Assembly (NCBI GenBank): GCA_020851435.1
Contig: JADZCS010000227.1
Span: 1 to 64,000 of the forward strand
Reading direction: 5' to 3'
Length of the DNA: 64,000 nt
Source: Gammaproteobacteria bacterium
GTDB taxonomy: Bacteria; Pseudomonadota; Gammaproteobacteria; Steroidobacterales; Steroidobacteraceae
Below are positions 48,613 to 50,991 of this stretch, in pieces (positions within the stretch are counted from its first letter, which is position 1; every line of letters begins with the position of its first letter). The notes under the pieces were generated by a model that searched no databases, was not told the origin of the DNA, and was given only the letters and a program-made list of their open reading frames with translations. Made by a program: the position numbers and the translations under genes.

Positions 48613-49272
48613 TCAGCGCTTCAGGGTCGTGATGCCGCTCGCGCCCGCGATCACCAGCACGTCGGCCGGCCGGCGCGCGAACAAGCCGTTGCACACCACG
48701 CCCGCCAGCTGGTTGATCTCGCCCTCCAGCGCGGCGGGATCGGTGATCTCGAGGTTGTGCACGTCCAGGATCACGTTGCCGTTGTCGGTGACGACCCCCT
48801 CGCGATAGACGGGCTGGCCGCCCAGGCGCACGAGCTGCCGGGCCACGTAGGAACGCGCCATGGGCACGACCTCTACCGGCAGGGGGAATCGGCCGAGTAC
48901 GTCCACGAGCTTGGAGTCGTCGACGATGCAGACGAAGCGCTGCGATGCGGCCGCCACTATTTTCTCGCGGGTGAGGGCCGCGCCGCCGCCCTTGATGAGC
49001 TGCAGGTGGCGGGTCGCCTCGTCGGCGCCGTCCACGTAGACCTCGAGTTCGCCGACGGAGTTGAGGTCCATGACCTCGATGCCGGCTGCCTGCAGGCGCG
49101 CGGTGCTGGCCTGCGACGAGGACACGGCGCCCTTGATGCGCTGCCGCATGGAAACGAGGCAGTCGATGAAGTGATTGACCGTCGAGCCGGTGCCGACACC
49201 GACCACCATCCCGTCCTTTACCCATTCAAGCGCCGCTTCGGCTGCGGCACGCTTCCTGGCGTCTGCGCTCAT
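48613..49272 (-). CDS. rpiA: Ribose-5-phosphate isomerase A
   Basis: '[18 protein letters not shown]', '[30 protein letters not shown]'. Confidence 0.97.
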
Positions 49273-49312: not shown

Positions 49313-49338
49313 ACTGTGCCCGCTTTCGCGGGCACAGT
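49313..49338 (-). terminator. Hairpin, candidate (weak) terminator downstream of the Lys-rich peptide gene
   Basis: ACTGTGCCCGC-TTTC-GCGGGCACAGT 11-bp perfect stem; only a short T-tract on the minus strand. Confidence 0.5.
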
Positions 49339-49398
49339 TGAGTCTGCAGAACAGCGGCGGGTCTTTCGATCAACCGCCGTTCCGGCTACTCGAGGGCT

Positions 49399-49461
49399 TA
49401 CTTCTTCTTAGCAGCCTTCTTCGTAGCCTTCTTCTTCGCAGCTTTCTTCTTCGTTGCCATG
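49399..49461 (-). CDS. 20-aa lysine/alanine-rich peptide MATKKKAAKKKATKKAAKKK (not in ORF track)
   Basis: ATG..TAA on minus strand, SD CAGGAGA at 49469-49475 (7-nt spacing), sigma70-like TTGCAA-16-TATACT at 49522..49495. Confidence 0.6.
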
Positions 49462-49494
49462 ATCGGATCTCCTGTCGGGTTAATCCGGGGACGA

Positions 49495-49522
49495 GTATAT
49501 ACATGCTTGACGGGATTGCAAG
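49495..49522 (-). promoter_or_regulatory. Candidate sigma70 promoter of the Lys-rich peptide gene
   Basis: -35 TTGCAA 49517-49522, 16-bp spacer, -10 TATACT 49495-49500 (minus strand). Confidence 0.55.
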
Positions 49523-49689: not shown

Positions 49690-50220
49690 TCAGTCGATGC
49701 GCTCGCCGGCGCGCGCCATCACGCAGCGGAACTCGGCGGGACTGACCGGCGTGATCGAGAGGCGGTTGCCTCGCCTGAGCACCTGCATGTCGCGCAGATC
49801 CCGCTCGGAAAGCGCTCGAAGCGCCTCCAGCGTCACCGGTTGCGCAAATCTGCGCAGCAGCTGGACGTCGACGACGTACCACGTCGGCTTCGACGGGTCG
49901 CTCTTCGGATCGAAGTGTGAGTCGTCCGGATCGAACGCGCTCGGGTCGGGATAGCCCTCCCTCGCGATCCGCATGACGCCGTAGATGCCGGGCACCTCGC
50001 AGCTCGAGTGATAGAAGAAGGCGAGGTCGCCCTTCTTCATTTCGTCGCGGAGCATGTTGCGGGCCTGGAAGTTGCGAACGCCGTCCCAGTGCGTGGTCTT
50101 GCGCGGGCGCCTCGCGAGGTCGTCGATGCTGAAAACCGAGGGCTCCGACTTCATGAGCCAGTAGCGCGGGCCTTCATCCGGAGCTGTTTTTTGCCTTGCA
50201 GCAGGCTTCGCGACGGGCAT
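49690..50220 (-). CDS. EVE domain-containing protein (thymocyte nuclear protein-like)
   Basis: 'RYWLMKSEPSVFSIDDLARRPRKTTHWDGVRNFQARNMLRDEMKKGDLAFFYHSSCEVPGIYGVMRI'. Confidence 0.95.
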   Translation of the reverse strand: MPVAKPAARQKTAPDEGPRYWLMKSEPSVFSIDDLARRPRKTTHWDGVRNFQARNMLRDEMKKGDLAFFYHSSCEVPGIYGVMRIAREGYPDPSAFDPDDSHFDPKSDPSKPTWYVVDVQLLRRFAQPVTLEALRALSERDLRDMQVLRRGNRLSITPVSPAEFRCVMARAGERID

Positions 50221-50793
50221 TCAGACTCCTTGGGGTTCATGTGGCCGACTGCGTTGAAAGCCGGCGGGCGTGACGATGCCCCAGACCGGCACGTCCCAGG
50301 CGTGGGACGGCAGTTCGGGCAGCAACTGGAATTCGTGGACGAAGGCGACCAGGCGCGGTTGACGCCAGTGGCTGCGTTGCGCGAGGAAGGCGAAGTGCCG
50401 GTCGTAGAAACCGGCGCCCATGCCGAGCCGGTTGCCGCTGAGGTCGATCGCCACGGCGGGAACGATGACGAGGTCGAGCCAGCGCGGGGCGATGGCTCGT
50501 CCGTCCATCGCGAAGTGCATGCGGCGGCGGCGGAAGTCGTCGATGACCGGCAGGTAGACCTGGCAGCCGCGGCGCGTTGCGGCCGCGATGAGCGGCCGCG
50601 GGTCGAGTTCGCCGTCCATCGGCAGGTAGGCGGCGATGCGCGCGCCCGGTCGCAGCAGGCCCGCAGCCGCGAACGCGCGGCATGCGGCCAGCGCCGCGAT
50701 GCGCTGGTGTTCGGCCCCAAGGCCGCGGCGTGTGCTGCGCAGGGCGCGGCGCAACTCGCGGCGATCATCGACCGGCATGGTCACCTGGTTCAT
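50221..50793 (-). CDS. ygfA: 5-formyltetrahydrofolate cyclo-ligase
   Basis: 'ELRRALRSTRRGL', 'DLVIVPAVAIDLSGNRLGMGAGFYDRHFAFL'; downstream of 6S RNA and zapA. Confidence 0.93.
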   Translation of the reverse strand: MNQVTMPVDDRRELRRALRSTRRGLGAEHQRIAALAACRAFAAAGLLRPGARIAAYLPMDGELDPRPLIAAATRRGCQVYLPVIDDFRRRRMHFAMDGRAIAPRWLDLVIVPAVAIDLSGNRLGMGAGFYDRHFAFLAQRSHWRQPRLVAFVHEFQLLPELPSHAWDVPVWGIVTPAGFQRSRPHEPQGV

Positions 50794-50803
50794 CGGGAGA
50801 GGA

Positions 50804-50991
50804 GGCGCCACCCGCCTGTGCCGTATTGGATCGTCGCTCCCGACCGGAGCAACAGGTGGGGCTAACTGCAGCAGTAAAGGCTTCCCGCTCGAGGCGGGCC
50901 TGCACACTCTTGCCGCAAGATACGGCCCCTGGGTTTTTCAAATTAGGGTCGAGAGGTTCCCGAACCCGCCTCGAACACCGCAGGTGGCGCC
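50804..50991 (-). ncRNA. ssrS: 6S RNA
   Basis: Between zapA and ygfA on the same strand (canonical locus); minus strand reads ggcgccacctgcggtgttcgaggcgggttcggg...aagcctttactgc...ggtggcgcc with GGCGCCACC/GGTGGCGCC closing stem. Ends set by that stem. Confidence 0.88.

Follow-up and report, generated by a model that had tools for sequence, protein, structure and literature searches.

A conserved 20-residue lysine/alanine mini-ORF upstream of rpiA as a candidate miniaturised histone-H1-tail-like protein

In the DNA analysed here (hereafter the window, a stretch of 64,000 nucleotides), a reading frame of only 20 codons lies on the minus strand between the gene of an EVE-domain protein and rpiA. 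The frame (ATGGCAACGAAG...AAGTAA, 49460-49398) encodes the Lys/Ala peptide MATKKKAAKKKATKKAAKKK. The question is whether so short a frame is a gene at all and, if it is, where it came from and what its product might do. The features on which the analysis rests are as follows.

48613 to 49272, minus strand: rpiA, ribose-5-phosphate isomerase A, the constant downstream neighbour of the mini-ORF
49313 to 49338, minus strand: terminator-type hairpin of 11 bp with a GAAA loop, ACTGTGCCCGC-GAAA-GCGGGCACAGT, and a degenerate T-run, CGTTTC
49398 to 49460, minus strand: Lys/Ala mini-ORF of 20 aa, stop codon included, read from the sequence and from family conservation
49473 to 49468, minus strand: Shine-Dalgarno sequence AGGAGA, 7 nt 5' of the ATG at 49460, read from the sequence; GGAG is kept family-wide
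49473 to 49487, minus strand: leader motif CGGATTAACCCGACA (family consensus CGGACTAACCCGACA), conserved in the family and in sister families
49494 to 49521, minus strand: promoter TTGCAA (49521-49516), 16 nt, -10 element TATACT (49499-49494) inside TGTATATACTC
49690 to 50220, minus strand: EVE-domain protein gene, the usual upstream neighbour of the mini-ORF
50221 to 50769, minus strand: gene of the 5-formyltetrahydrofolate cyclo-ligase family, the next upstream neighbour

The mini-ORF and its conservation in the family

The initial annotation had proposed an unannotated mini-gene with a complete expression cassette, whose product might bind nucleic acid or ribosomes. The frame, promoter, Shine-Dalgarno sequence and 11-bp hairpin were all present as described, and the gene is kept in 190 of the 217 genomes that make up its GTDB family (24 of 25 genera) as a Lys/Ala ORF of 14-30 aa. 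The promoter TTGCAA-16-TATACT was likewise present as read, but its -35 element is perhaps better placed at CTTGCA (49522-49517), with a 17-nt spacer, since the conserved element at this position is CTTGTA/CTTGCA. The gene order on the minus strand of the window is zapA, 6S RNA (RF00013, 78 bits, 50805-50989), the cyclo-ligase gene, the EVE gene, the 20-codon ORF and rpiA. A profile search with the 20-aa peptide matched no Pfam or NCBIfam family, and nothing relevant on KKAAKKK was found in the bacterial literature.

Since a protein search with the peptide is too weak to find relatives of 16 aa, DNA patterns were used. The first relatives, found via the EVE gene, carry Lys/Ala mini-ORFs of 16-22 aa immediately downstream of it. 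Among 100 genomes of the family, a mini-ORF was present between EVE and rpiA at nearly every locus with enough sequence, and 101 of the 106 family loci examined carry one. A start-to-stop pattern (Shine-Dalgarno sequence, ATG-Ala, Lys-rich end, stop) run on whole genomes matched 144 of 217 family genomes, whereas the reversed control gave no match. The occurrence of the mini-ORF is therefore far beyond chance. The total of 190 genomes consists of these 144 matches and of loci missed by the pattern, and at every family neighbourhood read the mini-ORF lies directly upstream of rpiA. The initial annotation had counted a disrupted ORF between conserved flanks in relatives as evidence against the gene; the peptide is instead kept throughout the family. 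A gene present family-wide is thus one that standard gene finding will likely overlook, being so short and of low complexity.

Four of the five loci without a mini-ORF lie at or near a contig edge. The fifth (L159, in genome G011) has EVE without an adjacent rpiA, and in this genome mini-ORF and rpiA occur together elsewhere (L235), away from EVE. In the genomes without a mini-ORF that were re-examined, rpiA was mostly absent or a fragment at a contig edge, and in G152 an assembly gap interrupts the mini-ORF (L231); most of the genomes without a mini-ORF are broken assemblies. In G201 (L228) the mini-ORF is apparently absent between EVE and rpiA, possibly by real loss or by misjoining or misassembly. 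Two rpiA loci, each with a different mini-ORF (30 and 25 aa), were observed in G186 (L220, L239), which may be a mixed assembly. A version of 61 aa (MAKAKKKAKAKVATKAKAK...) was observed in G200 of genus g13 (L230:1132), apparently a repeat re-expansion.

In one subclade of genus g19 (L174, L175, L180-L182) the EVE gene is absent, and the mini-ORF still lies between the cyclo-ligase gene and rpiA. Since the mini-ORF stays in this subclade, and lies away from EVE in G011, it does not depend on EVE. Its constant neighbour is rpiA, not EVE.

Selection on the peptide and its transcription unit

Synonymous and nonsynonymous changes were compared in 37 disjoint nearest pairs. With an expected synonymous share of 0.25, there were 153 synonymous and 107 nonsynonymous changes (ratio 0.235), the latter count being inflated by pairs of equal length with different internal spacing; the p-value of 1.6e-30 is only indicative, because disjoint pairs are not fully independent by descent. 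By a simpler count the ratio was 0.289 in the coding frame, and 1.27 and 4.8 when the other frames were read. The frame of the mini-ORF is under purifying selection, with a dN/dS of about 0.24-0.29. Substitutions numbered 3016 at third codon positions, versus 1038 and 901 at the other two. Across the family loci, Lys is written with either AAA or AAG and Ala with any of its four codons, yet the encoded peptide is retained; forms such as MAKAKKKAKKKAAKKK, MAKAKKKAAKKKAAKKK, MATKKKAAKKKATKKKAAKKK and MAAKAKKAKKKVAKKKAAKKK each correspond to 7-11 distinct DNA sequences.

The promoter of the mini-ORF is the sole match to a sigma-70-type promoter in the surrounding 2 kb, where 0.2 would be expected. 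Among 91 distinct upstream sequences of the family, the best promoter score was at least 9 of 12 in 58, versus about 12% of shuffled copies, and TATANT was present within the expected span in 83. The series CTTGCTTGtAATTT...gTGTATATACTC...CCCGGACTAACCCGACA.GGAGA recurs nearly unchanged in these sequences. A second copy of the leader motif was not found in the genome of the window with a pattern that misfits the genome's own locus (spacing one base shorter).

The hairpin core GCCCGCGNAAGCGGGC is present in exactly one copy in most family loci, and its outer stem covaries among them (ACTGTG/CACAGT, GGAT/ATCT, GACGAG/CTCGTC, CTATG/CATAG). The hairpin of the window has no proper T-run, and terminator prediction did not call it. 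In most family members the T-run is degraded, the longest run being 3 in 64 of 97. In several sister families a full T-run follows the hairpin that precedes rpiA, against mostly only three T in the family with the mini-ORF, which suggests that read-through into rpiA has evolved.

Long repeat proteins in the same slot of sister families

Nine sister families from the order (f2, f3, f4, f5, f6, f10, f11, f14 and f16; eleven loci) carry, between EVE and rpiA, a Lys/Ala/Arg-repeat protein of 94-209 aa (hereafter the KAR-repeat protein), with repeats such as KKKVAKKKVA, RKKKKTT and KKKPAA. The mini-ORF occupies the slot of this protein directly upstream of rpiA. The upstream regions of the long forms carry, as those of the mini-ORFs do, a -10 region with TATATACTC, a leader of the form GGAC...ACCC...GACA(C/T)GGAGA and a similar start; the core TATATACTC is conserved 5' of the mini-ORFs and of their long orthologues, and GGAC.AACCC and GGAGA are also common to both kinds of locus. 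The GCCCGC-loop-GCGGGC hairpin of the mini-ORF loci also precedes rpiA at six of the eleven loci with a long form, with a full T-run in four of the six. The KAR-repeat proteins differ from the mini-ORF peptides in being about 5-10 times longer and richer in Arg, Val and Thr, and in the stronger T-run at these four loci. The same GCCCGC/GCGGGC hairpin was present at L196, a locus at which no long form was found.

The likeness to histone H1 tails noted by the initial annotation therefore extends beyond composition, since the slot in sister families holds full-length H1/AlgP-like repeat proteins with the same promoter and leader. Given the Lys/Ala low complexity, protein sequence cannot by itself prove homology, and the case for orthology accordingly relies on synteny, promoter, leader and hairpin. 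Shared as they are, these four features suggest that the peptide is a reduced orthologue of an H1-tail-like polycation. From the sequences compared, the most plausible reading of the mini-gene is that of a miniaturised representative of the KAR-repeat lineage. The simplest history appears to be one contraction in the ancestor of the family followed by small expansions (61 aa in G200), a direction that rests on parsimony over taxonomy, the order being too poorly resolved in the RpiA tree to place the change in size.

Similar long proteins were found downstream of EVE in other gammaproteobacteria, for example in Thiohalophilus and in relatives of Ectothiorhodospiraceae. A query with the long KAR-repeat found no long copy in the genome of the window. 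Separate longer Lys/Ala-repeat proteins were observed elsewhere in G027 and G003 (L212:1498-1791 and L213:1447-1680 (minus)), so that a second H1-like protein is retained in some members. About 364 genomes of the class from outside the family yielded one clear short form, a Lys/Ala mini-ORF of 19 aa (MAAKKKAKKAKKKAAKKKK) in G625, of an unrelated family, at a locus (L241:1511) that matches neither EVE nor rpiA. This may be a case of convergence.

Possible function and comparison with known systems

The mini-ORF is a gene, kept in the family and selected at the protein level, and we consider it probable that it is translated, that it is the miniaturised orthologue of an H1-tail-like repeat protein, and that its product is a protamine-like binder of polyanions. 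The main rival explanation is that translation of the Lys-rich mini-ORF controls rpiA in cis, as a leader peptide or uORF, for example by slowing of the ribosome that alters read-through of the hairpin. Three points make this rival a serious one: rpiA stays next to the mini-ORF even in genomes that have lost EVE or carry it elsewhere, the gap between hairpin and rpiA is only about 40 nt in the window, with no promoter found there, and the T-run is degraded in the family while several sister families retain longer ones. We nevertheless regard it as unlikely. Unlike in classical attenuators, the hairpin does not overlap the ORF but lies about 15 to 75 nt beyond the stop codon among the family loci, and the single hairpin stands in no fixed geometry to the ORF. 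In addition, the variation of Lys and Ala codons with retention of the peptide points to selection at the peptide level, and proteins of 94-209 aa occupy the same place in sister families.

The peptide might instead be a basic factor that acts mainly on rRNA or ribosomes and not on the chromosome. Lys-rich extensions are common in ribosomal proteins, and the GC-rich stretch after the -10 element and the strong Shine-Dalgarno sequence would suggest growth-linked expression. There are, however, no ribosomal genes among the neighbours, and the longer orthologues show a likeness, below cut-off, to proteins of the H1/HC2 type; we hold this explanation to be quite improbable. That a small RNA is the functional product, with the purine-rich GAAGAAG stretch and not the peptide as what matters, would agree with the compact transcription unit and the conserved leader and hairpin. 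It would not agree with the concentration of substitutions at third codon positions, with an excess of synonymous changes in the coding frame only, or with the lack of any Rfam match near the mini-ORF besides the 6S RNA; the small-RNA reading was rejected on the codon-position evidence and is very improbable. Finally, the drastic reduction in size relative to the sister families could mean that the mini-ORF is the decaying, now functionless remnant of a once useful repeat protein. Such decay is hardly to be believed, as the frame, promoter, Shine-Dalgarno sequence and, usually, a C-terminal KKK are maintained across 24 of 25 genera, with a dN/dS well below 1.

On the reading that we favour, an ancestral repeat protein of 94-209 aa would have lost most of its repeats in the family, leaving 14-30 residues (61 in one genome). 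The remaining peptide has about one positive charge per two residues. It would be made from its own promoter, on a transcript that would end partly at the hairpin and partly continue into rpiA. The product would be a polycation, disordered or made helical by polyanions. Diffusing freely, it would act in the manner of a protamine or a polyamine and bind DNA, RNA or polyphosphate largely regardless of sequence. By analogy with AlgP, a protamine-like polycation that binds nucleic acid or polyphosphate is the most likely nature of the peptide, although the polyanion binding of a peptide of 14-20 aa may be too weak for an H1-like action. We propose only tentatively, and with some doubt, that in the whole family an H1-like chromosomal protein has shrunk to 14-30 residues that might still be essential or near-essential in polyanion binding. 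If this is true, the peptide would rank among the smallest known conserved proteins of chromatin or polyphosphate, within a natural size series of 14 to 209 residues at one locus. The mini-ORF offers a very small bacterial protein that is conserved and whose evolutionary origin can be traced. Because lengths of 14, 16, 21, 27, 61 and 94-209 residues occur at one locus behind one promoter, the minimal working length of an H1-like tail becomes testable.

Protamines and polyamines are short, highly basic, non-specific binders of polyanions. The mini-ORF peptide would resemble them in kind, but it is bacterial and composed of Lys/Ala rather than Arg. The HC2 family (PF07382) and the Burkholderia-type H1-like protein (NF038053) have Lys/Ala/Arg repeats, as the long forms do. 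The peptide gave no match to either, and the long EVE-linked forms reached at most about 20 bits, against curated cut-offs of 40-135; membership was therefore rejected for the peptide and for the long proteins tested.

Of the proteins that have been studied, the one closest in kind is AlgP (AlgR3) of Pseudomonas aeruginosa. Its KPAA-repeat C-terminal tail and peptides made from the repeats are reported to bind DNA, and the protein is reported to localise to polyphosphate granules (PMC9239181). Identity with AlgP was rejected, since the peptide is 20 aa long and lacks both proline and an N-terminal domain. AlgP combines an N-terminal domain with a KPAA tail of 154 aa and contains proline, whereas the mini-ORF peptides have 14-30 aa, almost no proline and no such domain, and are encoded beside rpiA. 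Like them, AlgP is a Lys/Ala-rich polycation of low complexity that has been compared with histone H1 tails.
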